A stretch of 36,585 nucleotides of DNA from Bacteroidota bacterium (GTDB lineage Bacteria; Bacteroidota; Bacteroidia; JAADEI01): contig JALWYU010000098.1 of assembly GCA_026992635.1 (NCBI GenBank), positions 1-36,585 of the forward strand, read 5' to 3'. A program made the position numbers and the translations under genes. Of the stretch, positions 2,457-14,850 are shown in pieces; position 1 is the first letter of the stretch, and every line of letters starts with the position of its first letter. The notes beneath the pieces were generated by a model. That model did not search any database. It was not told the origin of the DNA and saw only the letters and a program-made list of their open reading frames with translations.

Positions 2457-3314
2457 TTAGCGTGAGGGCGAAACATAAGCCTCTACTGGATAACGAGAAT
2501 TTTTCCAGGAGAGGACTTCCGCACGGATTTCTCCTACGATGATTGGCGAGGTTGCCAGCAGGACGATTCTGGCTAAATCATCGGTTGCCCATACCCGCAT
2601 CTTTGCACCTTCTTTGAAGATTGTTCCAGGTATTAGTTCTGGCTCAATCACGATACACCGGAAGGTTCCATGTCGGGTTTTCAAAATCTGCTTACCCAAA
2701 TAGGTGACTTTCAGTTCATACATGTTCTCGTCAATGAATGTGGTGATTTTGAAGAAGTCGCCAGGGCGCATCCCGGAAAAATCCAGCGTCCGCACATAAA
2801 AAATCGCGGTGACCACGTCAAAGACGCAGGGTTTAATCGGAAATTTCTTAGGGACGGTCTGGTCATCCTTCAGTGAGTAGGCAATTCGCTGGCGATGATC
2901 AAAGCGTACGTCTTCAAAAATTGTATATCCCCCTTCGTAGACGTCGCGCCGAAAGCGAAAAGGTCGTAAACGCAGAGTGTCTGCCCAGCTCTCATAGAGG
3001 TCCTCTACTTTGTAGAACCACTCATAGCTCTTATAGGTTTTGCCATAGCCCCGAAAATAGTAGGCGGGTTTTCCTTCGTAGGTAGTGAGCTGGGTGGTGA
3101 TTTCCACTTCGCCAGCTGCCAGCCATAAGAAACCCCATCGGTAGTAGATTTTGTAACGGACGACTTCACCGGGATTCAGGACGCGCACCTGTGGATGGCA
3201 GGGGGGCTGAACCAATCGTCCGCCAGGCCGAGTGCCCACGACCCACCACAACAGCACAAAGATTGCAAGCCCCCGAAGAAATACCCGAAGCCAATGCTTA
3301 GTAGTACCAATCAT
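2457..3314 (-). CDS. DUF3108 domain-containing envelope protein
   Basis: About 285 residues. An N-terminal hydrophobic segment (LRVFLRGLAIFVLLWWVVG) is a signal peptide or anchor. The remainder has the DUF3108 pattern: a start like NPGEVVRYKIYYRWGFLWLA, then an AGEVEI strand, GYGKTYKSYEWFYKVEDLYESW, then LRPFRFRRDVYEGGY. The fold is a beta-rich periplasmic or outer-membrane-associated domain of unknown function, common in Gram-negative bacteria. Two in-frame ATGs are possible; I prefer the second (3314) because an AAGGGG sequence lies just upstream of it, but 3329 would add five residues. It is the first gene of the minus-strand run ending in comF and is divergent from the PorV/PorQ-like barrel gene. 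Confidence 0.8.
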   Translation of the reverse strand: MIGTTKHWLRVFLRGLAIFVLLWWVVGTRPGGRLVQPPCHPQVRVLNPGEVVRYKIYYRWGFLWLAAGEVEITTQLTTYEGKPAYYFRGYGKTYKSYEWFYKVEDLYESWADTLRLRPFRFRRDVYEGGYTIFEDVRFDHRQRIAYSLKDDQTVPKKFPIKPCVFDVVTAIFYVRTLDFSGMRPGDFFKITTFIDENMYELKVTYLGKQILKTRHGTFRCIVIEPELIPGTIFKEGAKMRVWATDDLARIVLLATSPIIVGEIRAEVLSWKNSRYPVEAYVSPSR

Positions 3315-3470
3315 GTGTTGCCCCTTCATTTGACAATTTCGGTGGCTTGGACAAATGAAACTAAAGCAAATTTCATGCCAGAGGTCCGTTCACTGGGCAA
3401 GATAACCACTCATTGTGGGAAGAATCATCGGGCAAAAGTTGCTACCTTGATTGGAAAAAGGGTTGTGCCG

Positions 3471-4433
3471 ATGTGCGCAGGCTGGGAGTCTTACGGGTTG
3501 GCTCGCCTGTCTTCGCACAGTGTGTGGTGGGTTGTGTTTGTCGCTGGAATGTTGCCCAATTTCAGCTGGGCACAGTATGCTGCCTGGGGTGTGGATGCCC
3601 AGGCGTATGCGCAGGGCAACATCTCTTTATTCATTGAAACGCCTGCACTGGCGTTTACCAATCCGGCACGACCTGCCCACTTCCCATTTTGGTCCGTTTA
3701 TTTGTCGGCGTCCCGATTCTATGGCGTATGGGAGTTGCGCTGGTTTCAGGCGGGGGCGTTTTTACCCTGGCGGACCGGGACATGGCAAACCGCACTTTTT
3801 TATGCGGGCTCGCGATACCTCCATATGGGCATGGCAGTAGTGGGTTATGGACATCGTGTAGGGGAGGGTTTATCCTTAGGGGTGTCAGCGGGCACTTGGT
3901 ACCTGTCCGCAGGTTCTTATGGTCGGAAATGGTTACCTGTAGTTCACATGGGGTTTGAAGGGCAATGGGCAAGATGGACGGTTGCCGGCGCTATTTTTAA
4001 CCTGACAGGCACCAGACTTAATCCCAGTACGTATACCATGCTTCCAATGGTTATGCGTGCGGGCATTGCCTATGAACCACTCTCCACGACGCAAATATTC
4101 TGTATGGTGGAGAAACCCTGGATGGAACCCGTAGGAATTCGCGTGGGGCTTCGGTTTCGGTTTCATCCACGTGCCGTGATTTTTCTGGGTGGGGGCGATG
4201 CACCGTTGCAGGCGGGCGGGGGCTTGTCCCTGATCGTCTGGGAATCAGCCCATGCGCAGGAGGAGGGACAACCGGTGGATACGTTATCGGTTGAACGCGC
4301 AGCGGTTGTTCGTCGGCATCTTCAGACTACGGTTGCCCTGCTCTATTCGCCTTTTTTGGGTGGTACTGTCCATGGGGCAATTCAGTTTGTGGGGTACAGG
4401 GTGCGTGGCAAGCAGGAAGTGCGAGTGCATTAA
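3471..4433 (+). CDS. PorV/PorQ-like outer-membrane beta-barrel protein
   Basis: About 320 residues from the chosen ATG. The start is set by a good signal peptide: a hydrophobic run ending GMLPNFSWAQ, cleaved after Ala or at AQ. An upstream ATG at 3375 would put about 32 polar residues ahead of it. The mature protein is rich in Gly, Trp, Tyr and Phe with alternating polar/hydrophobic strands, as in outer-membrane barrels. The early phrase ETPALAFTNPARPA resembles the asparagine-proline-alanine motif of PorV/PorQ/FadL-like T9SS accessory proteins. I therefore suggest a member of that broad group; a generic barrel is the alternative. It lies 51 bp upstream of the helix-hairpin-helix/barrel gene, so the two may work together. 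Confidence 0.5.
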   Translation: MCAGWESYGLARLSSHSVWWVVFVAGMLPNFSWAQYAAWGVDAQAYAQGNISLFIETPALAFTNPARPAHFPFWSVYLSASRFYGVWELRWFQAGAFLPWRTGTWQTALFYAGSRYLHMGMAVVGYGHRVGEGLSLGVSAGTWYLSAGSYGRKWLPVVHMGFEGQWARWTVAGAIFNLTGTRLNPSTYTMLPMVMRAGIAYEPLSTTQIFCMVEKPWMEPVGIRVGLRFRFHPRAVIFLGGGDAPLQAGGGLSLIVWESAHAQEEGQPVDTLSVERAAVVRRHLQTTVALLYSPFLGGTVHGAIQFVGYRVRGKQEVRVH

Positions 4434-4484: not shown

Positions 4485-6575
4485 ATGAGGCGATTGACAA
4501 AGGGTGCATGGCTGCTCTGTATAGTGGTTGGTGCGGTGTGTCCAACGGTTGCCCAGGAGATTTCAGGTGGTGAGGAAATTGTAGAAGAGGAGGAGAAAGC
4601 CAGTGAGCAGGTAACAGACCTTCTGGAGGAATTACAGCGGTTGCAAACTGTCAAGATTCCGATCAATCGTGCTACCTTTAAGGATTTTCTTCCGTTGATT
4701 GAAGCGGGCTTGGTCACCGAAGCGGAGGCGCGGGCGATACTCCGTTATCGCGACCAGTATGGCCCCCTGAAGAATCTTGCTGAATTGCAAGGGTTACAGG
4801 CGATTACGCCAGAAGCACTTCGTCGCCTGTTCCCATATCTGCGCATAGACTCCCCTGAGGAAGATCGGCAACGAACACGCTTTTTGTTCACAGGAGGTAA
4901 ACACCAGCTGGTTTTTCTGAACTGGCGCCTCCTGGAACTTCAATATGGCTATACCACCAGAGATTCTTTCTATCGGTTTTTGGGTTCGCCCTGGAAGACC
5001 CAGTTCCGCTATCGGTATTACCATCCTGTTGTACAATGGGGTGTTACGATGGAAAAAGATGCGGGTGAGCCCTTTCTGCAAACTGTTCCGAACTATGGGT
5101 TTTTCTGGATGGACTACTTCAGTGCTTATGTGGCGGTTTCGTTGCCAGAGCGGTGGGTGCTCCGTCGTGTGTTACTGGGTGATTTCGCTGTGCGCTGGGG
5201 GCAGGGTCTCGTCATCTGGACGGACTTTGCCTGGGGGAAGTCCTCTGCAGTGCTTCAGTTTTTGCGTGGCGGTCAGGCATTTCGTCCCTACACTTCTGTA
5301 GTGGAGAATCGTGCGATGCGTGGGCTTGCTACCGAATGGGAGATAGGTTCCTTTAAGGTTCAGGCATTTGTCTCCCGGCGCAAAGTAGACGTTCGGCTCT
5401 CAGATCAAACCGTAGAGACATTGCCGGACACCTTCCAGACACTACTGGCGCAGGAGCAAGTACCTGTTGCAACATCGTTGCTTACATCGGGCTATCATAG
5501 AAATCTTTCTGAGCTGCGCTTTCGGCATGCAGGACAACTGAGCGCAGTCGGTGCACGCCTTGTACTTCATCGGGCATGGGGTCAAGTGGCTGCCGGTGCC
5601 CTCTACACCCATCTCAACGCGTATCTCACCCCTTACCGAGCATACCTGTACAATGCTTTTTATTTCCGGGGACAAACCACAACTCATGCATTTGCGGACT
5701 TTTCGGTCTATCCATTTACGGGTGTGCGTCTTGCTGGAGAAGTGGCGTGGTTATTGCCGGATATCCCGGCATACAGTGTGGGCATGCAGGTGAGTCCGTA
5801 TCGGCGGCTCCATGCGGGATTGCTCTACCGGCGCTGGTCGCCAGCCTACTGGTCCTTTTTTGCCAGACCGTTTGGCGAGTACTATCGCGGACAGAATGAA
5901 GAAGGGCTGTATCTGACGGTATCCGGTCGCCTGACACCTGCATGGGAATTCGCAGGATACATTGATTTGTACAGGCATCCGTGGTTTCGCTGGCGGCGCG
6001 ACCTCCCCTCTACAGGTTGGGAATACTTCTGGCGGATTGTATACAAATTCGCGGAGACAGGGCAGATGTACGTACAGGGCAGGCAGGAGCAATTCCTGGC
6101 ATCCGCCACAACCGATAATCCCATAGATTCGCCCTACTGGTATGTGCGCCGGTACGTCCGTTTTCATGTCCAGATGAACTTGCCGGGGGGCAGGCGTGTT
6201 CAGTTTCGTGTTCAGCATTCCCGGGCACAAACGCCGCAGAAAGACTGGGGAGTGCTTGCTTATGTACACCTTCAGACACGGATTGCCCGGGGATTGCGCG
6301 CTTACGGGCGGATGACCTACTTTTACACAACGGGCTGGTCGTCAAGAATTTACGCTTATGAGCCTGCCGTGCCATTTACATTTCCGGTGGCACCGCACTA
6401 TGGTCATGGTTTTCGCTACGTACTCATGGTGCGCTATCGGTTTGCGCAAGGGGACGTCTGGTTGCGCTTTGCCCGGACACGCTGGCTGGATAGATCCCGC
6501 GTGGGCAGCTGGCTCACCGCAATCCCCGCACCACATCGCTCTGAAATCACTGTTTTGCTCAGGTTGCGATTTTGA
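4485..6575 (+). CDS. Helix-hairpin-helix domain fused to an outer-membrane barrel
   Basis: About 696 residues. A signal peptide (about 1-23, ending TVAQ) is followed by an acidic linker (EEIVEEEEK). Residues about 58-118 form a helix-hairpin-helix region like that of ComEA: INRATFKDFLPLIEAGL, a second helix with the pattern EARAILRYRDQYGPLKNLAEL, then ITPEALRRLFPYL. The remaining ~570 residues are strand-rich, aromatic and arginine-rich, ending in a barrel-like LRLRF terminus. Barrel proteins of this size with an N-terminal HhH are widespread in Bacteroidota and usually annotated only as HhH-domain proteins. The HhH suggests DNA or protein contact in the periplasm. The ATG at 4485 was preferred over 4446 because it starts directly at the basic, then hydrophobic signal peptide. 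UppS follows after 72 bp. Confidence 0.75.
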   Translation: MRRLTKGAWLLCIVVGAVCPTVAQEISGGEEIVEEEEKASEQVTDLLEELQRLQTVKIPINRATFKDFLPLIEAGLVTEAEARAILRYRDQYGPLKNLAELQGLQAITPEALRRLFPYLRIDSPEEDRQRTRFLFTGGKHQLVFLNWRLLELQYGYTTRDSFYRFLGSPWKTQFRYRYYHPVVQWGVTMEKDAGEPFLQTVPNYGFFWMDYFSAYVAVSLPERWVLRRVLLGDFAVRWGQGLVIWTDFAWGKSSAVLQFLRGGQAFRPYTSVVENRAMRGLATEWEIGSFKVQAFVSRRKVDVRLSDQTVETLPDTFQTLLAQEQVPVATSLLTSGYHRNLSELRFRHAGQLSAVGARLVLHRAWGQVAAGALYTHLNAYLTPYRAYLYNAFYFRGQTTTHAFADFSVYPFTGVRLAGEVAWLLPDIPAYSVGMQVSPYRRLHAGLLYRRWSPAYWSFFARPFGEYYRGQNEEGLYLTVSGRLTPAWEFAGYIDLYRHPWFRWRRDLPSTGWEYFWRIVYKFAETGQMYVQGRQEQFLASATTDNPIDSPYWYVRRYVRFHVQMNLPGGRRVQFRVQHSRAQTPQKDWGVLAYVHLQTRIARGLRAYGRMTYFYTTGWSSRIYAYEPAVPFTFPVAPHYGHGFRYVLMVRYRFAQGDVWLRFARTRWLDRSRVGSWLTAIPAPHRSEITVLLRLRF

Positions 6576-6647
6576 TGGGGTTTTGAACCCGAAAAAGCCA
6601 GTTTTTTTCGTTCCTTATGCTGGTGGAGGGAAAATAAGTGGCAGTAC

Positions 6648-7454
6648 ATGGCGGCGGACACAAATGGCGAACTGGACAGATTAGTCCGTACAATTCGTGC
6701 ACGGGCGCTGCCCCGGCACATTGCACTGATCATGGATGGGAATGGACGATGGGCACTTCGCCAGGGGCAACCCCGTGTGCATGGTCATCGTGTTGGGGCA
6801 GAACGCGTCAGCGATGTGGTGGAACTGGCACTGGACCTGGCAATTCCCTACATAACTCTGTTCACGTTTTCTATGGAGAACTGGCAACGCCCACCTGAAG
6901 AAGTGAATGCGCTAATGAACCTCTTAGAAGAAGCCATTGAAACTTACTGGCAGGAAGCGGTTCGCCTCAAAATCCGATTGTTTTTCTTAGGGGATCGGAC
7001 ACGGTTGCCAGATAAAGTACGCCGTGCTATTGAGCATGCTGAACAAGCCACGCGTGTAAACACCCGGCTTACACTCACCTTAGCACTCAGTTACAGCGGA
7101 CGATGGGAGATTACCGAAACCACAAAACGCGTCTTGCGCAATGCCGGGCGAATTCATCCTGCTGTGGTCACTGAGGAGTTCTGGCAGGCGTGTATGCCCT
7201 CGGCACATCTACCTCCAGTAGATCTGCTCATACGTACGGGTGGTGAGTATCGTATCAGCAATTTCACGCTGTGGCAGGCCGCCTATGCTGAGTTCTATTT
7301 TACCGAAGTACTCTGGCCAGAATTTACCAAGGTTCACCTGGCACAAGCAATCCTGCACTGGCAGCAGCGGGAGCGACGCTTTGGACGTGTTCCTGATTAT
7401 CAGGTTTACCCTGCCCGAACTGACGATCAACCGGAAGATGTGGTTTCCCGGTAA
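6648..7454 (+). CDS. uppS: Undecaprenyl diphosphate synthase (isoprenyl transferase)
   Basis: 268 residues, normal for cis-prenyltransferases. The catalytic loop HIALIMDGNGRWA has Asp30, the residue that binds the Mg-diphosphate of the allylic primer. Other family motifs are present: FSMENWQRP, LSYSGRWEIT and the C-terminal RTGGEYRISNFTLWQ with the following LWPEF. The enzyme adds isopentenyl diphosphate units to farnesyl diphosphate to make the C55 carrier lipid used for peptidoglycan and surface glycans. It sits 34 bp ahead of bamA, a pairing also seen in other Bacteroidota. The product is the precursor of the lipid substrate of the WecA-like enzyme at the right edge, and Dxr in this window starts the same pathway. 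Confidence 0.95.
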   Translation: MAADTNGELDRLVRTIRARALPRHIALIMDGNGRWALRQGQPRVHGHRVGAERVSDVVELALDLAIPYITLFTFSMENWQRPPEEVNALMNLLEEAIETYWQEAVRLKIRLFFLGDRTRLPDKVRRAIEHAEQATRVNTRLTLTLALSYSGRWEITETTKRVLRNAGRIHPAVVTEEFWQACMPSAHLPPVDLLIRTGGEYRISNFTLWQAAYAEFYFTEVLWPEFTKVHLAQAILHWQQRERRFGRVPDYQVYPARTDDQPEDVVSR

Positions 7455-7488
7455 AGCGGGATTGGATGCTAAAAAAGATTTTGAAAGG

Positions 7489-10149
7489 ATGCGCAGGGGG
7501 AAGTGGTGCGGAAAGTTTGGGTTTATGTTCAGGAATGGATGTGTGGGCATAGTCTTTGTGTTTTGGGGTATATGGCTGGGTGGACCGGCTCAGGCGCAGG
7601 TATCCTATCAGCCTGGTAAGGAGTACATTCTGGGTGGTGTCTCCTTTACAATAGATGGGCTGGATGACGTCCCCACCGAAGTCCTGCACGCCCTGACAGG
7701 GTTGCGCCCGGGCGAACGGATCCGGATCCCCGGAGACCAAACCCGCGATGCACTGAAGCGTCTCTGGCAACAGGATCTCTTTGTCTCGCTCCGTATGGAA
7801 GTCGCGGAGGTTCGTGGCGATACTGTTTACTTGCGGATTGTGGGTAGAGGACAGCCACGCATCGCGAAGTACACCATTGTGGGTGTGCCTCGTGGTCAGG
7901 CAGAAGAGATCGCGGAACGCATCGGTTCGCTTAAAGGAAAAGCCTTCACGCAATCGCTCCAAACCATGATTCAGGCACGTGTCCAGCATTACTATCGGGA
8001 AAAAGGCTTTTTGTATTGCCGGACGCGTGTGGTCGTGAAAGATACGGATGAGACCGGCAGATTGATTCTGGCTATTCATGTTCACCGCGGGCGGAAGGTC
8101 CGCATCCATGAAATTGATTTTGTCGGGAATGTGCGGTTTTCTGACCGGCGTCTTCGCATGCAATTGAAGAAAACGAAAGTCTACCCACGCTTCTGGATTT
8201 TACGGCGTTTTTCACTCCATGCACTTCTCTGCGGGCAGGACAGACGGTGTACACCGGAAGACCTGCTCGTCATCCCGCAATTTCTACGCAATATGGTGGA
8301 CTACTGGGGACAGCGTGTTCGCCTCACCATTTTCCATTCTTCGCGCTACCAGGAAGAACAATTTCAGGCAGACCTTCGCAACATGCTGGAGTTCTACTAT
8401 CGCCATGGGTTTCGCAATGCTCGTGTCTTGAAAGATACAGTGATGCTCCTGGCAGATTCTACGCTCTGGATCCGAATTTGGGTTGACGAAGGTAATCAGT
8501 ACTATTTTGGCAGGATTACCTGGACGGGCAACCACCTGTATTCTGACTCTTTTTTGACGATGCGCCTGGGCATTCGTCCGGGCGAAGTGTACAACCGTGA
8601 ACGGTTGACCCAGCGCCTGTTCGGCGATCCTGCCGGCACCGACATTGCCTCCCTCTATATGGATCAGGGTTACCTGTTCTTCAATGCGGTGCCCCGGGAA
8701 ATCCGAGTCCGCAACGACACGATTGACATTGAGATTCGGATTTACGAAGGTCCGCAAGCCACGATTCAGCAGGTTTACATTCAGGGCAACACCAAAACGC
8801 ATGATCATGTCATCCGACGTGAGCTCTACACGGATCCAGGTAATATTTTTTCCCGGCGGGATGTGATTCGCTCCCAGCAACGGCTTGCCAGCCTCAATCT
8901 CTTTGACCCCGAACAACTGAAGATTCAGCCGGAGCCCCGTCCGGAAACGGGCGAAGTGGATCTTCGTTATGAGGTTACGGAGCGTGCGTCGGACCAGGTG
9001 GAACTCTCTGCAGGCTATGGGAATCGCATGCTGGTGGGGACGCTCGGCTTAATCCTCAATAATTTTTCGTTTCGGGAGTTGATTACGGGTAAGGGGTGGG
9101 ATCCATTGCCGGCGGGCGATGCCCAGCGCCTCTCAATTCGTGCGCAGTCAAACTACTATGGATACAGGGCGTTAACGGTATCGGTGAGCGACCCATGGTT
9201 TGGCGGGCGCAAGCCCCATTCTTTTACCACCACGTTTTACTACAATGTGTTTCAGGGCTTTGCCCCGGTCGTGGATTCATTGCCCAGCAAACAGAGGACA
9301 CTCGGTGTGAACTGTTCCTGGGGTTTCCGCCTGCGCTTCCCCGACGACTACTTCATGCTGTTTCTCTCACTGGAATACCAGCAAATTCACTTAGTCAATT
9401 CAGCGTATTTCTCTACGCTCCTCACCAGTGGCACGGTCAACAATGCATTCCTGGAATTGAAACTGACACGTAATTCTGTTGATCAGCCGCTTTTTCCCAG
9501 GCAAGGAGCACAAATCACGTTGACGTGGCGACTGACTCCTCCTTATTCGTTGCTCTTTCCTGTAGCGGTTTCTCCGGAGCTTCCTCCTGAGGAACGATAT
9601 CGCTGGCTGGAATACTACAAGTGGAAGGTGGATGCTGAATGGTATCTTCCCCTGGATTTCCGGAGGAAATTCGTGGGGAAAATCCGGTTCAGCTTTGGAC
9701 TGATGGGTGGCTATCAACCAGCGTTAGGTGCTCCACCCTTTGAGCGTTTTGACCTGGGTGGCGATGGCTTCTCCAACTTTTATCTGTATGGCAAGGAGGT
9801 GGTTTCCCTGCGTGGTTACAATCCCTTTTTGCTGAATGCACGGGCATTTCAGAAACTCTCCTTGGAGTTGCGCTATCCGGTTGTGCTCAGTCCGATGTCC
9901 ACGATTTTTGTCTTAGCGTTTGCGGAAGGGGGGAATGCCTGGTCGGACCCCGCACGGATTCAACTCTTTGATTTGTACCGGTCTGTGGGTGTGGGCATTC
10001 GTTTTCTGTTGCCCATGGTAGGTTTAATGGGCTTTGATTTTGGCATTGGTCTGGATGTGCCTTATGCGCCACGTCCTGAAAGATGGACGGATTACTTTCG
10101 GGCGCCTTATTCACGCGTGAGCATTATTCTGGGCTTTGAACCGTACTGA
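7489..10149 (+). CDS. bamA: Outer-membrane protein assembly factor BamA
   Basis: About 886 residues. The signal peptide ends near GGPAQAQ. Several POTRA units follow, each with the beta-alpha-alpha-beta-beta pattern and a recurring Gly-Asn (e.g. IDFVGNVRFSDRRLR, ITWTGNHLYSDSFLTMRLG, VYIQGNTKTHDHVIRREL). The Omp85 barrel begins around the ELSAGYGNRMLVGTLGL strand, and VSVSDPWFGGRKP is the usual early-barrel motif. The loop-6 signature is present as LRGY near the end, and the protein ends in an aromatic residue (GFEPY). BamA folds beta-barrel proteins into the outer membrane. Start choice: ATG 7489 follows GAAAGG; ATG 7525 is an alternative that still leaves a complete signal peptide. The frame continues upstream into uppS but that part is unlikely to be translated. 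The Skp-like chaperone gene follows after 30 bp. Confidence 0.95.
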   Translation: MRRGKWCGKFGFMFRNGCVGIVFVFWGIWLGGPAQAQVSYQPGKEYILGGVSFTIDGLDDVPTEVLHALTGLRPGERIRIPGDQTRDALKRLWQQDLFVSLRMEVAEVRGDTVYLRIVGRGQPRIAKYTIVGVPRGQAEEIAERIGSLKGKAFTQSLQTMIQARVQHYYREKGFLYCRTRVVVKDTDETGRLILAIHVHRGRKVRIHEIDFVGNVRFSDRRLRMQLKKTKVYPRFWILRRFSLHALLCGQDRRCTPEDLLVIPQFLRNMVDYWGQRVRLTIFHSSRYQEEQFQADLRNMLEFYYRHGFRNARVLKDTVMLLADSTLWIRIWVDEGNQYYFGRITWTGNHLYSDSFLTMRLGIRPGEVYNRERLTQRLFGDPAGTDIASLYMDQGYLFFNAVPREIRVRNDTIDIEIRIYEGPQATIQQVYIQGNTKTHDHVIRRELYTDPGNIFSRRDVIRSQQRLASLNLFDPEQLKIQPEPRPETGEVDLRYEVTERASDQVELSAGYGNRMLVGTLGLILNNFSFRELITGKGWDPLPAGDAQRLSIRAQSNYYGYRALTVSVSDPWFGGRKPHSFTTTFYYNVFQGFAPVVDSLPSKQRTLGVNCSWGFRLRFPDDYFMLFLSLEYQQIHLVNSAYFSTLLTSGTVNNAFLELKLTRNSVDQPLFPRQGAQITLTWRLTPPYSLLFPVAVSPELPPEERYRWLEYYKWKVDAEWYLPLDFRRKFVGKIRFSFGLMGGYQPALGAPPFERFDLGGDGFSNFYLYGKEVVSLRGYNPFLLNARAFQKLSLELRYPVVLSPMSTIFVLAFAEGGNAWSDPARIQLFDLYRSVGVGIRFLLPMVGLMGFDFGIGLDVPYAPRPERWTDYFRAPYSRVSIILGFEPY

Positions 10150-10179: not shown

Positions 10180-10719
10180 ATGGGTAGGGTTGCGAAATGG
10201 TTTTGGCGCGGTGCCCTTGTGCTGGGCGGATTGTTCCTGTGCGGGCTTTCCGGGGTGTGGGGTCAGCGCGTTGCCGTGGTGGACACGCGTGCCATCATGG
10301 AAGCCATGCCCGAATACCAGAAAGCCCGGCGCTATCTGGATTCCCTGGCACGTGCCTGGCATCAGGAAATTGAAAATCGTCAGCGGGAAATTGCGCAGCT
10401 TCGTCAGCAGTATCAAGAAGAAAAGTTTTTGCTCACTGAGGAGATGCGCCGGGAACGTGAACAGCTCATTCAGGACAAGGAGCAGGAAATGCGTCAATTG
10501 CAGCGTAGTTACTTTGGTCCGAATGGCAAGCTCTTTCAGGAGCAGGAACGCTTGCTCAAACCCATTCAGGAGAAAATTTATCAGGCGGTTCGGGAAGTGG
10601 CGATGAACAAGCGGTATTCGCTGGTACTGGATCAATCAGCGGGCGCTATGATCCTCTACGTAGAGAGGCGGTACGACATTACTGATGAAGTCAAGAAACG
10701 ACTTGGGCTCAAAGACTGA
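10180..10719 (+). CDS. OmpH/Skp family periplasmic chaperone
   Basis: 179 residues, typical for Skp/OmpH. A signal peptide ends at GVWGQ. The mature protein begins with the family strand RVAVVDTRAIMEAMPEYQKA, then a long charged coiled coil (about 45-125, rich in E, Q, R and K) that would form the tentacle of the trimer. It returns to the core with YSLVLDQSAGAMILYVERRYDIT. Skp holds unfolded outer-membrane proteins in the periplasm on their way to BamA, encoded immediately upstream. The stop codon directly abuts the GTG at 10720 in front of the acyl-ligase gene, so all three are probably one transcript. Confidence 0.92.
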   Translation: MGRVAKWFWRGALVLGGLFLCGLSGVWGQRVAVVDTRAIMEAMPEYQKARRYLDSLARAWHQEIENRQREIAQLRQQYQEEKFLLTEEMRREREQLIQDKEQEMRQLQRSYFGPNGKLFQEQERLLKPIQEKIYQAVREVAMNKRYSLVLDQSAGAMILYVERRYDITDEVKKRLGLKD

Positions 10720-10752
10720 GTGAAGCTGGTGGATGGGAACGGGAACGGGCAC

Positions 10753-11802
10753 ATGGCTGGTACTGGTGGTTCTGTCTGGAGCCGTCAGGCTTTTGAGAGG
10801 TGTTTTGCGGAGTGGGAGCGACTCTACTGGTGGCAACAATCGTATGTGCCTGTGTTTCGGGAGTGGGTCTTGCGGAGGGGCAGGCGCACCAAATCACTGC
10901 CTGTTTTTTTACCAATAGAGGTGTTTCGGTATCGGGTTGTCCTGGGTGAGGGACTGGTTCCGCGTAGCGTTTTTCGGAGTAGTGGGACGACGGGCAGGCC
11001 GCCCGCCAGACATTTTCGTGCGTTTCCTGAACTGTATCGTGAGAGTGTATGGCGGGGGTTTACCTGGTGGTCGCAAACGGTGATGGGCTGGTCTTCCGAT
11101 CGGTGGTGGCATATCAGTTTATTTCCCGCCCCTGCAATTCGCCAGCACAGCTCACTCAATACCATGATTGCCTGGCTAATGGAGAAGACCCTTTCTGACG
11201 CGACCCAGCAATTGGTGTTGCCGCGGGGCACATGGATTGCGCCCGAGTTGTCTAAGGATGTTGCGCGTTTGTATACTGCGTTGATGGAAGCCATTGCTGT
11301 AATCCCAGGAGGATATCGTCCACTTGTGTGGGGTCCACCTTTCGTATTTATTGCGCTGGCGGAACGGGGCAAATCTTTGCCCTCGGAAACCTGCATCATT
11401 GAGACTGGTGGAATGAAGGGGCGGGGTCCCGAGCCCGATCGCCGCACACTTCACCGATGGTTAGCCCGTCGTCTCGGCTGCTCTGTCCATTCTGAATTTG
11501 GCATGTGTGAGCTGAGTGTACAGGCGTATACTGTGGAAGCCGGCGTCTTTGCTTTTCCTCCGTGGGTGCACATCCAGGTGGAAGATCCACAGGTGCCGGG
11601 GAAGCTCGCTGGGCACAGGATGCGACGTCATGTTCGTCCTGGTCGCCTTTGCCTGATTGATCCCTACAATTTTGAAACCTGCGCGTTTCTGGCTACAGAA
11701 GATCTGGTTCAACCCCTAAACGCAACCTGTTTTCAGGTGATTGGACGACTGGAAACCTGTGATTTACGTGGCTGCCACCTTCTCTGGACGGAAGCGCATT
11801 AA
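10753..11802 (+). CDS. LuxE-like acyl-protein synthetase / adenylate-forming acyl ligase
   Basis: About 349 residues. The adenylation P-loop signature SSGTTGRP follows a short N-terminal helix region. Later come IETGGMKGRG and a CSVHSEFGMCELSVQAY segment, which matches the LuxE / Bacteroidota acyl-transferase pattern (ETGG-KGR, then HSEYGMTEL). LuxE activates a fatty acid with ATP and takes it onto a cysteine; related Bacteroidota proteins are widespread and not characterised to my knowledge. No LuxC reductase or acyl carrier protein is visible nearby. A GTG at 10720 directly after the ompH stop is an alternative start, followed by a GGGAAC tandem; ATG 10753 gives the usual N-terminal length. 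It ends 30 bp from the convergent protease gene. The family call is good, the substrate is unknown. Confidence 0.8.
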   Translation: MAGTGGSVWSRQAFERCFAEWERLYWWQQSYVPVFREWVLRRGRRTKSLPVFLPIEVFRYRVVLGEGLVPRSVFRSSGTTGRPPARHFRAFPELYRESVWRGFTWWSQTVMGWSSDRWWHISLFPAPAIRQHSSLNTMIAWLMEKTLSDATQQLVLPRGTWIAPELSKDVARLYTALMEAIAVIPGGYRPLVWGPPFVFIALAERGKSLPSETCIIETGGMKGRGPEPDRRTLHRWLARRLGCSVHSEFGMCELSVQAYTVEAGVFAFPPWVHIQVEDPQVPGKLAGHRMRRHVRPGRLCLIDPYNFETCAFLATEDLVQPLNATCFQVIGRLETCDLRGCHLLWTEAH

Positions 11803-11832: not shown

Positions 11833-14800
11833 TTACCGGTTCACCAGGACTTTGTGCCAGGTCGTCCATTGTGCAGCTCGTCCCCGGATGAAATACACGC
11901 CGGGGACTAACGCAAACTGGTGCTGTGCCTGGGCTGGTAACAATACCTGTACGATTTGTCTGCCATCTGCTGTGTAGAGGGCGAGTTGAACAGGAGTTGT
12001 ACCCCGGTTTTGTACGATGAGCCAGGAACCTTGCCGTACGGTGAACCAAAGCGGATTCATAGCATGCGTTCTTGCGGCGTTCAGGGAGGCGCCGGTGGGG
12101 GCATCGCCCGGCACCTGAACAGACACCTGTACACGGCAACCATTGACATCCGTAACCGTGGCGGTATACCATCCTGGGCATAAGCCCGTTACAATAGCGC
12201 CGGTATCGCCTGAACTCCAGACGATGGTATACGGAGGCGTCCCTCCCTGGATGGTTAAGTGAATTGCTCCTGTGCAGGTATTGCCCGTCGCGGCAATGAC
12301 GGTATCCACATTGACCTGAATGGTATCCTGATTGACCAGGGCAAACGTTCCGGATACCTGACATCCTGCCTGGTCAGTAACAACCACGGAATACACCCCT
12401 GCACCAATCCCCTGTAAAACAGCACCTGTATCACCGGTATTCCACTGGTAGGTGTAAGGAGGAATACCCTGAACGCCTGCTACGGCAATGACGCCAGAGG
12501 AATCCCCGGGACACAGTGGATGGACTTCCTGAACCAGCATGAGCGTTAAATGACTCAGTGCATCCAGTGTGAATGTGTCGGAAAACTGGCAGCCTGCCCC
12601 ATCCGTAACCGTCACGATGTAGGTTCCTTCTGGCAGGTTAGTGAGCACGCATCCGGTATCGCCCGTGTTCCACGAACAGGTGTAGGGGGGCTGGTTACCG
12701 TTTATGGTTACGGTGATGGCGCCATCGGAGGTATAGGTGCAGGTGGGTGCTTGTGGTTGTATTGTGAGTGTGGGGGCGGGCGGACCTGTCAGCACAATGG
12801 TATCTGACGTGGTGCATCCGGCACTATCCTGGACCGTAACGATGTAGGTGCCTGCGGTCAGTCCGGTGAGCGTACACCCGGTTTGGCCGGTATTCCACGA
12901 ACAGGTGTAGGGAGGCGTTCCGCCCGCAGGTGTGACAGAGATTGTGCCATCCTGGGTTTGGGGGCAGGTGGGATCCTGCGCCTGAACAGTGAGCTGGGGT
13001 GGGTTGGGTGCCGTCAGCGAAAACGTATCCTGGGTTGTGCAGCCATTAGCATCCGTTACAGTAACAATGTAGGTTCCTGTGTCCAGGTTGGTGAGTGTAC
13101 AGCCCGATTGGCCGGTATTCCACGAGCAGGAATAGGCGCCTGTTCCACCACTGATGTTCAGTGTGATGCTTCCGTTTGGTGTTCCGGCACAGGTCGGATT
13201 TTGCGTTGTACCATTCACGGTGAGAGGTGGGGGTGCAATGAGTTGAATTGTGTCTGCCACGCCGCAATTCAGCGTGTCGGTTAAAGTAACGATGTACGTT
13301 CCGGCACACAGCCCGGTCCGCACCAGCGTACCATTTACACCGTCGCTCCATGCGATGGATAGGGGTCCTATGCCATCCCAGGGCGTGTCAATCACCACTG
13401 TGATTGCACCATCGCATGAGCTGGCGCATGAGGGTGCTTGAACGATGATGGTATCAATGCGGACGGGCAGGGCTTCAATGACTGCCAGGTGTGCCATAAC
13501 GAGTCCATAGCCATAGTACTGGTCTTTGCCGGGTGCGCCCAGGTCCATCGCTGTAATTTGCAGTATGCGTCGGGCGGTTCGGTTGTCCATACAGGGATGG
13601 ACGGAAAAGAGGAGCTGGGCTAAGCCAGTGACGTGTGGTGCCGCCATGGAAGTTCCGTTTTTGTAGTTGTAGAGAGAGTCGTATGGGACGGGTGCCACGA
13701 CCGAGTAAATCAATCCGCCATAGACAAGTCGTCCGCCAGGTGCCACGACTTCCTGGTCCACTCCATAGTTGGAGAAGTTGGATAGGGAAATCGTGTTGTT
13801 GTTGGAGTTGTAGTCTACGGAGCCCACGGCAATGACTTCGGGATAACGGGCGGGATAGGCGACAGGGCTCGTGGCACTGTTCCCGGAGGCGGCAATGAGG
13901 ATCTTGCCGTTGTTCCAGGCGGTTTGACAGGCGCTGTGCATGGCGGCATTGTAAGTAGAACTGCCAAAGCTCATGTTGATGGCGCGAATGGGTGCAGTGT
14001 TTGCCATGGCGTTGATGGCGTTGATGATGGCGGTGGTGCTTAAGCTGGGCGTGCCACTGAAGGCGTCGGGCATGGCTTTGCCAAACACGATGGTGTCGTT
14101 GACGATTCCGGCAATCCCCTGCATGTTGTTGATGGTGGCGGCGGCGATGCCCGTAACGTGTGTTCCGTGGTCGTCGCTGGCGGAAGGTGGGTAGACATCG
14201 TTATCGTTGTCGGCAAAATCGTAGCCGTAGAATGCCCAGGTGAGGTCTTCGTGGTTGTAGTCCAGGGCGTTGTCAATGATTCCGATCCAGTAGGGCGATC
14301 CACCCGTAGTGTAGCACCAGGCGCTATCTGCCCAGATGAGCCAGGGCGCCCACGACCAGATAATACTATCCCAGGCAGGGTCATTGGGTACGCATGTCAG
14401 GATGCGGACTTTGGGTTCGGGTTCTATGCCGAGGATGCGTGGTCGTTCGTTGGTGAAGGCATCCTGGATGAGTGCGTAGATGTACTCGGGTGTGGGGATG
14501 GGCACGCGAAAACTGTAAAATCGTTGCAGGTCGGGAAACATGGATGAGTCCAGGAGTTCGGTCAGATGCCATCGGTTTAGAAAGGGCTTGATCTCTGGGA
14601 GGGAGCCTTCTGGAGGGAGGGAGATGATGATGCGGTCCAGCCAGACTGCCGACCAGAATGCGCTGTCGGTAGGGGGATGCTTGAGGACGTGCCACCAGTC
14701 TATGGGTCCGGTCATGGGTATAGGTGGGCAGTCGCGACAGGTGGGTCCACTGGGTCGGTGCGGACCATTCGCCACAGCTGTAATGCACAAGTTAAAGGTG

Positions 14801-14850
14801 ATCAGCAGGTTAGCCAGCGCAGGGGTTAGTCGTTGCAGGGAATTGCGCAT
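11833..14850 (-). CDS. Secreted S8 subtilase with SprB repeats and T9SS sorting domain
   Basis: 1005 residues. Signal peptide about 1-28; a pro-region to about 175; a subtilisin catalytic domain about 176-460 with Asp193 (in IGIIDNALD), His228 (DDHGTHVTG), oxyanion Asn324 (AASGN) and Ser401 (NGTSMAAPHVTG). All triad residues are present, although the usual DTG/DSG reads DNA. Six SprB-type repeats follow (about 465-915). The last ~75 residues form a T9SS type A-like sorting domain (VQLALYTADGRQIVQVL, then GVYFIRG, ending HKVLVNR), so the protein should cross the outer membrane through the T9SS encoded at 25.6-31.9 kb and be released or attached at the surface. Last gene of the minus-strand run; its 165 bp gap from purA holds a promoter candidate, so it may be transcribed separately. 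Substrate unknown. Confidence 0.93.
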   Translation of the reverse strand: MRNSLQRLTPALANLLITFNLCITAVANGPHRPSGPTCRDCPPIPMTGPIDWWHVLKHPPTDSAFWSAVWLDRIIISLPPEGSLPEIKPFLNRWHLTELLDSSMFPDLQRFYSFRVPIPTPEYIYALIQDAFTNERPRILGIEPEPKVRILTCVPNDPAWDSIIWSWAPWLIWADSAWCYTTGGSPYWIGIIDNALDYNHEDLTWAFYGYDFADNDNDVYPPSASDDHGTHVTGIAAATINNMQGIAGIVNDTIVFGKAMPDAFSGTPSLSTTAIINAINAMANTAPIRAINMSFGSSTYNAAMHSACQTAWNNGKILIAASGNSATSPVAYPARYPEVIAVGSVDYNSNNNTISLSNFSNYGVDQEVVAPGGRLVYGGLIYSVVAPVPYDSLYNYKNGTSMAAPHVTGLAQLLFSVHPCMDNRTARRILQITAMDLGAPGKDQYYGYGLVMAHLAVIEALPVRIDTIIVQAPSCASSCDGAITVVIDTPWDGIGPLSIAWSDGVNGTLVRTGLCAGTYIVTLTDTLNCGVADTIQLIAPPPLTVNGTTQNPTCAGTPNGSITLNISGGTGAYSCSWNTGQSGCTLTNLDTGTYIVTVTDANGCTTQDTFSLTAPNPPQLTVQAQDPTCPQTQDGTISVTPAGGTPPYTCSWNTGQTGCTLTGLTAGTYIVTVQDSAGCTTSDTIVLTGPPAPTLTIQPQAPTCTYTSDGAITVTINGNQPPYTCSWNTGDTGCVLTNLPEGTYIVTVTDGAGCQFSDTFTLDALSHLTLMLVQEVHPLCPGDSSGVIAVAGVQGIPPYTYQWNTGDTGAVLQGIGAGVYSVVVTDQAGCQVSGTFALVNQDTIQVNVDTVIAATGNTCTGAIHLTIQGGTPPYTIVWSSGDTGAIVTGLCPGWYTATVTDVNGCRVQVSVQVPGDAPTGASLNAARTHAMNPLWFTVRQGSWLIVQNRGTTPVQLALYTADGRQIVQVLLPAQAQHQFALVPGVYFIRGRAAQWTTWHKVLVNR
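12106..13458 (-). repeat. Six tandem SprB repeats inside the S8 protease gene
   Basis: Codons for residues about 465-915 of the protease. Each unit follows the SprB pattern: PTC, a DGxI strand, PPYTCSWNTG, TGCxLTxL, GTYIVTVTD, then GC. The three central units (about 12556-13230) have exactly the same length, 75 residues or 225 bp: cysteines are at 554/575/584/604, 629/650/659/679 and 704/725/734/754. The outer units are more diverged, and units 5 and 6 lack the CSW and TGC cysteines. SprB repeats are known from the surface adhesin SprB of gliding Flavobacterium. The regular spacing suggests tandem duplication. Confidence 0.88.

Follow-up and report, generated by a model that had tools for sequence, protein, structure and literature searches.

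The LuxE-type gene and its conserved residues

The window analysed here, a stretch of 36,585 nucleotides from a Bacteroidota bacterium (contig JALWYU010000098.1, positions 1 to 36,585, GenBank assembly GCA_026992635.1), carries a gene for a putative acyl ligase of the LuxE type. The initial annotation, drawn from the sequence alone, had described it as an orphan LuxE-like acyl-protein synthetase and had hinted, from an adjoining chaperone gene, at the acylation of an envelope protein or lipid. The gene's reading frame runs uninterrupted from GTG 10720 to the stop codon at 11800-11802 (10720..11802, plus strand, 360 codons). Translation may start at this GTG or at ATG 10753, which is residue 12.

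Conservation was read from two alignments. Alignment A1 comprises 31 sequences, namely the window protein, those of 29 whole-genome loci and that of L031, the one relative which a contig-level scan yielded. A wider alignment (n=61) adds 25 distant members from other classes and five canonical-type second copies. The phosphate-binding (adenylation) loop, F85-x-SSGTTG92, is encoded at 10972..10995 on the plus strand, as are all motifs named here, with SSGTTG at residues 87-92 (nucleotides 10978-10995). Its residues F85, S87, S88 and T90 are found in 31/31 A1 sequences and in 25/25 distant members. The ETGGMKGRG motif (E228-G236, 11401..11427) is invariant from E228 to G234 in 31/31 A1 sequences, and ETGGMK recurs in 25/25 distant members. 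The HSEFGMCEL motif (H257-L265, 11488..11514), the counterpart of the SEYGMTELLSQAY block, keeps E259, G261, M262 and E264 in 31/31 and 25/25 sequences, respectively; C263 is present in 12/25 distant members too. These three motifs had been named in the initial annotation and are present at the residues given. Near the C-terminus, R350-G351-C352 (11767..11775) supplies a cysteine which is the proposed acyl-thioester site on a flexible tail and which we take to be the equivalent of the acylated cysteine of LuxE. Cys352 occurs in 61/61 sequences (31/31 A1 members, 25/25 distant members and 5/5 canonical-type copies). The invariant set of A1 consists of F85, S87, S88, T90, ETGGMKG, E259, G261, M262, E264, D314, D328, R343 and R350-G351-C352, and the window protein retains all of it. 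The active-site check which the initial annotation had proposed thus came out in favour of the ligase, with the adenylation residues invariant across A1 and the cysteine across the wider alignment.

Assignment to the LuxE family

Searches with the window protein alone gave no hit in Pfam or NCBIfam (E <= 0.01) or among PDB sequences (E <= 10), and the protein fails the curated cut-offs of the Pfam and NCBIfam LuxE families (0 families). A PF04443 search of its own genome gave no match at E <= 0.001; the same search matched just 1/14 control genomes and none over the cut-off. The single-protein and PF04443 searches are empty because the protein is too diverged for them, and the LuxE assignment rests on relatives since the protein by itself matches no library family.

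A homologue is present in 55/60 genomes (own genome included), usually as a single copy and with a best E-value outside the own genome of 9.1e-49, so that the window gene is more than a chance frame. At E <= 1, 29/31 A1 members match Pfam LuxE (best 5.6e-18) and 30/31 NCBIfam LuxE (best 1e-17); the window protein is among the members without a match to either. The A1 profile matches the Photobacterium LuxE of a solved complex (PDB 7xc6_E) with an E-value of 5.4e-26 over positions 20-326 of 329. In this match the C-terminal RGCNL of the family aligns on ..KGCSL of 7xc6_E, which places Cys352 on the cysteine of the LuxE GC motif. Alignment by hhalign with a canonical-type LuxE copy gave a probability of 99.7.

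The structural model is consistent with this picture. AlphaFold returned a PaaK/ANL-type fold with a predicted local distance difference test (pLDDT) score of 81.5. Residues 348-360, which include Cys352, score less than 50, in keeping with a mobile tail. PaaK uses coenzyme A (CoA). The closest structural match of the model is PaaK1 with adenosine triphosphate (ATP) (Z 23.7, 296 residues, 3.4 A), and PaaK-type phenylacetate-CoA ligases together with Bacteroides thetaiotaomicron BT_0428 (2y27, 4rvn, 4r1m) form its nearest neighbours at Z about 22 to 24. The PaaK and BT_0428 chains measure 420-435 residues, are matched to about residue 340 and extend further, whereas the window protein ends just past Cys352. 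7xc6_E is absent from the best 50 PDB fold matches of the model, although the A1 sequence profile matches it. The likeness to LuxE (PF04443, NF052244, 7xc6_E) lies in the length (360 vs 373 residues), the SSGT loop, the GG-x-K motif and the near-terminal GC cysteine. From these sequence features the window gene product is predicted to be a LuxE-type adenylate-forming ligase, in agreement with the type of acyl-protein synthetase named in the initial annotation.

A probable LuxC-type partner in the same genome

Pfam LuxC has matches in 51/60 relatives; many score weakly and fall in frames some 350 residues long. A profile built from 20 such proteins of the window's class (A2) recovers the family in 55/60 genomes, own genome included, where its single match lies on contig C40 at 5816-6799 (E 1.2e-86). 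The corresponding LuxC-like gene is an open frame at about 5774-6859 of that contig and contains the motif GLGCRNVS. NCBIfam LuxC matches 15/20 A2 members at E <= 0.1. In a wider alignment of 25 sequences (A3), Cys205 of the GLGC motif is found in 25/25; 23/25 members match Pfam LuxC, the own-genome protein not being one of these. The predicted structure of the LuxC-like protein (pLDDT 91.5) has LuxC itself as its top PDB match (7xc6_A, E 3.1e-11, template modelling score 0.76 by query length), and the A3 profile matches 7xc6_A at 9.1e-5. Given the homology to 7xc6_E on one side and to 7xc6_A on the other, the two gene products resemble both subunits of one solved complex. The own-genome LuxC-like protein shares 37-40% identity with its sister-genus counterparts.

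The term 'orphan' used in the initial annotation consequently holds for the neighbourhood but not for the genome. No LuxC or acyl carrier protein (ACP) gene lies in the window, as had been stated; the sole LuxC-like match is that on C40, and the sole ACP match (PF00550, E <= 0.001) is on C102.

Co-occurrence and linkage

Across the 60 genomes (own included; counts here and below not corrected for relatedness), 54 hold both genes, four hold neither (G028, G035, G046, G051), one has the LuxE-type gene only and one the LuxC-type gene only. In a phylum-wide sample (n=296, E <= 0.001), LuxE-type genes were found in 131 genomes and LuxC-type genes in 139: both in 129, LuxE-type alone in 2, LuxC-type alone in 10 and neither in 155. 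Within the window's class the identical 71 genomes hold both genes, and the class non-carriers among the matches listed (G035, G291) lack both. The other classes account for 58 genomes with both, two with the LuxE type only (G227, G316) and ten with the LuxC type only. As the LuxE-type matches of G227 and G316 are canonical-type copies only, a core LuxE gene, that is, one of the window gene's own branch, occurs without a LuxC-like gene in 0/296 genomes at E <= 0.001.

The two genes are also physically close in other classes. In 46/58 of the other-class genomes with both, the LuxC-type gene follows the LuxE-type gene on the same strand within 1.5 kb; two further pairs are 2.6 and 6.6 kb apart and ten are unlinked. 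Gene-by-gene reading of 25/27 other-class LuxE loci (L131 and L136 left out, some loci picked because their genes are unlinked) found the LuxC-type gene next in 17/25.

These counts bear on whether the ligase may act without LuxC, passing the acyl group from its own cysteine to another acceptor such as ACP, CoA or a protein. A LuxE-type gene without a LuxC-like match in G032, a same-strand FabD-like gene about 19 bp ahead of the LuxE-type gene of G030, and the separation of the two genes throughout the window's class would fit such a role. The joint absence in 4/6 genomes missing either gene and the closeness in the other classes speak against it, and we regard it as unlikely.

Proposed reaction

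We consider it likely, judging from the sequences, that the window gene provides the activating half of a split, non-luminescent carboxylate reductase of the LuxE/LuxC type, the carboxylate being probably a fatty acid. The PaaK-like domain would convert a carboxylic acid and ATP to an acyl adenylate, from which the acyl group would pass to Cys352 on the short, mobile C-terminal tail. It would then be handed to the active-site Cys205 of the LuxC-type partner encoded on C40, which would use a nicotinamide cofactor to reduce the thioester to an aldehyde. Homology to both subunits of one complex, both cysteines, the adenylation motifs, the co-occurrence and the operon-like closeness elsewhere are observed; from them we infer catalysis, acyl transfer between the subunits and the aldehyde product. 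For the substrate, the first guess is a fatty acid of long or medium chain, for the sole reason that the characterised relative uses such acids.

Light is an unlikely purpose of the proposed reductase, since no luciferase match (PF00296) was found in the own genome, within an assembly completeness of 82.55%; 10/14 control genomes have a match. The LuxD acyl transferase (PF02273) has no match in the own genome and none in the control genomes either.

Several points weigh against the proposed reductase. Pfam LuxC has no match in the own genome, and the LuxC-like protein, searched by itself, hits nothing in Pfam or NCBIfam at E <= 0.01, being too diverged for single-protein searches. The class-only A2 profile finds no PDB sequence at E <= 0.001, and at 361 residues the LuxC-like protein falls about 115 short of LuxC (477). 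The pairing is broken in G032, which keeps LuxE without a LuxC-like gene, and in G027, which shows the reverse; ten genomes of the phylum sample, from other classes, have a LuxC-type match alone. In that class the two genes are unlinked; among the matches listed there is no close pair, and the nearest on a shared contig are about 25 kb apart (G216). The lack of correction for relatedness also tempers the co-occurrence counts.

Divergence of the window protein counts against the reductase as well. Its end branch in the LuxE tree measures 2.45 against a median of 0.42, and its identity to the sister genus is 34%, compared with 48-50% for uppS, 52-54% for bamA and 43-47% for skp. From the long branch and the low identity, specificity may have shifted. 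The atpD-like protein shares 79% identity with the sister genus. The window protein groups with the sister genus (Shimodaira-Hasegawa-like approximate likelihood ratio test (SH-aLRT) 97), a placement for which the tool warned that long rows are placed unsurely. The same branch length, together with an identity below that of the operon neighbours, could indicate that the gene is decaying in this lineage. However, its 360 codons run without a stop, all family-invariant residues are retained, and the LuxC-like partner likewise has an uninterrupted frame and keeps its cysteine, which makes decay very improbable.

Relation to known systems

The proposed reductase differs from the LuxE system of bioluminescent bacteria in that no luciferase match is found in the genome and no LuxC gene is a neighbour. 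Non-luminescent uses of LuxE/LuxC-type proteins have precedents. LuxE/LuxC-type genes have been reported from flagellin glycosylation islands (PMC7874193, PMC4875605), and these cassettes, like the Vibrio cholerae RfbN cited in PMC4772473, are examples of such use. Unlike the core gene, the flagellin-island cassettes belong to glycan clusters, which also contain genes for ACP, a 3-oxoacyl reductase and an adenosine monophosphate (AMP) ligase (PMC7874193, PMC4875605).

Copies resembling these island cassettes form another branch here than the core gene. They are the canonical-type second copies, a separate branch of the LuxE tree (SH-aLRT 100) which, unlike the core gene, sits in cassettes. The window protein is 21% identical to a canonical-type copy, and ETGGMK and SEYGM stand against HSGGWK and FYGM of the canonical type. 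The five copies were found at L153, L154, L155, L156 and L157 (genomes G007, G055, G085, G227 and G316). Each adjoins a LuxC-type gene, identified by Pfam LuxC in G007 and G055 and by eye in G085, G227 and G316. Their clusters contain FabG-like and AMP-ligase-like genes, with an acyl-carrier-like gene in 4/5 of those listed, and some neighbours resemble surface polysaccharide genes (all by eye).

Such clusters raise an alternative in which the pair works but serves an envelope glycan or some other metabolite by reducing a short or polar acid rather than a long-chain fatty acid. The five genomes with canonical-type copies in similar-looking clusters (by eye) lend it some credit. Set against this, the canonical-type copies belong to their own branch and to cassettes unlike the core gene, and no sugar gene was seen conserved beside the core pair in the loci of relatives, of class LuxC or of other classes. 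We hold this alternative to be possible, though on the doubtful side.

A second precedent comes from Riemerella anatipestifer, where the luxE homologue AS87_03730 was deleted. The mutant was reported to be viable, to grow more slowly in broth, to be attenuated and to show altered gene expression; the gene is described as conserved in the species and similar to Chryseobacterium and Elizabethkingia genes (PMC4772473). Like the core gene, AS87_03730 is a LuxE homologue of a non-luminescent bacterium, and the parts of that report covered here mention no LuxC partner (PMC4772473). It is probably an orthologue of the core LuxE-type gene.

Taking the class as a whole, we give an even chance to a broader reading: a near-universal LuxE/LuxC-type core reductase of the class, which its gene content (type IX secretion tail, SprB repeats) points to as Bacteroidia, encoded at two loci there and as an operon in other classes, which would supply an aldehyde for an undescribed lipid or metabolite, with the lux reductase as one offshoot of a wider non-luminescent family. 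Should the two proteins act as predicted, an aldehyde-forming reductase would be common to most members of a large and well-studied class. No description of a class-wide LuxE/LuxC pair in Bacteroidota was found in the open-licence literature searched, mostly at listing level.

Genomic neighbourhood

The genes uppS, bamA and skp precede the LuxE-type gene on the same strand (Pfam Prenyltransf, Omp85/POTRA and OmpH). The longest frame of bamA spans 7240..10149 on the plus strand, with POTRA and Omp85 matches, and is followed by the skp/OmpH chaperone gene (10180..10719, plus strand, OmpH 8.7e-36); both are neighbours outside the proposed system. The stop codon of skp, at 10717-10719, directly abuts GTG 10720, so the initial annotation was right to place the ligase gene against an outer-membrane chaperone gene.

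This arrangement is the basis of the idea that an outer-membrane protein or envelope lipid is acylated in connection with BamA and Skp. Same-strand abutment makes co-transcription possible in this genome. In the three genomes of the sister genus, however, uppS-bamA-skp is followed by another gene, which in G001 is rlmD (NCBIfam TIGR00479, 1.8e-111) and in G002 and G003 opens with the same residues as that rlmD; luxE lies elsewhere there, divergent from an atpD-atpC-like pair (assigned by eye). In the 60 genomes, the window's OmpH match is the only one among those listed to adjoin a LuxE match; the next closest are some 5 kb off, on the opposite strand, in two genomes of a single family (G012, G056). 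OmpH family matches serve here in place of searching the LuxE loci for skp with phmmer, which gave no hit but also passed over the OmpH genes of L043. Finally, the protein has the sequence of a LuxE-type ligase, and the genome also encodes a LuxC-type partner for it. The link to skp was rejected on the different gene after skp in the sister genus and on the absence of any other LuxE-adjacent OmpH gene among the matches listed, and acylation tied to BamA and Skp appears barely credible. Refutation of the initial annotation would have needed two failures: conservation of the skp-luxE order failed, and the active site passed. The LuxE family stands, and the envelope hint, which rested on a neighbour seen in this genome only, falls. 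The order looks like a local rearrangement of this lineage, uninformative on function. A false lead is thereby removed, as the gene gives no evidence of a new BamA/Skp-linked acylation.

Among 42 LuxE loci (window included), 13 have a same-strand upstream neighbour. Seven others of these neighbours were assigned by eye, FabD-like and sigma-factor-like genes among them and none OmpH-like. No conserved pathway gene was seen near LuxE in the 42 loci of relatives or the 25 other-class loci, nor near class LuxC in 20 loci. The same-strand FabD-like gene of G030 (by eye, L057:5217-6092), about 19 bp upstream of the LuxE-type gene there, is the sole fatty acid synthesis neighbour seen beside a LuxE-type gene.

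Other genes recur at these loci. In 23/42 loci the LuxE-type gene has a lipoprotein-like gene (about 175 residues) nearby, which is adjoining and divergent in 20 (e.g. L070:6059-6583). Near the class LuxC-type gene, 12/20 loci have a gene for a 4Fe-4S ferredoxin-like protein (by eye), adjoining and divergent in 11 (e.g. L074:4286-4627); the same stretch holds a secreted-protein-like gene in 12/20 loci and a serC-like gene in four.

Within the window, a 412-residue frame at 3195-4433 (plus strand), upstream of uppS-bamA-skp, matches neither Pfam nor NCBIfam at E <= 0.01. Convergent with luxE on its other side, a gene at 11833-14850 (minus strand) encodes a large S8 protease that carries SprB repeats and a type IX secretion tail. 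Elsewhere in the own genome, on contig C54, a low-complexity repeated frame (L166:1-608) immediately precedes a second skp-like gene.
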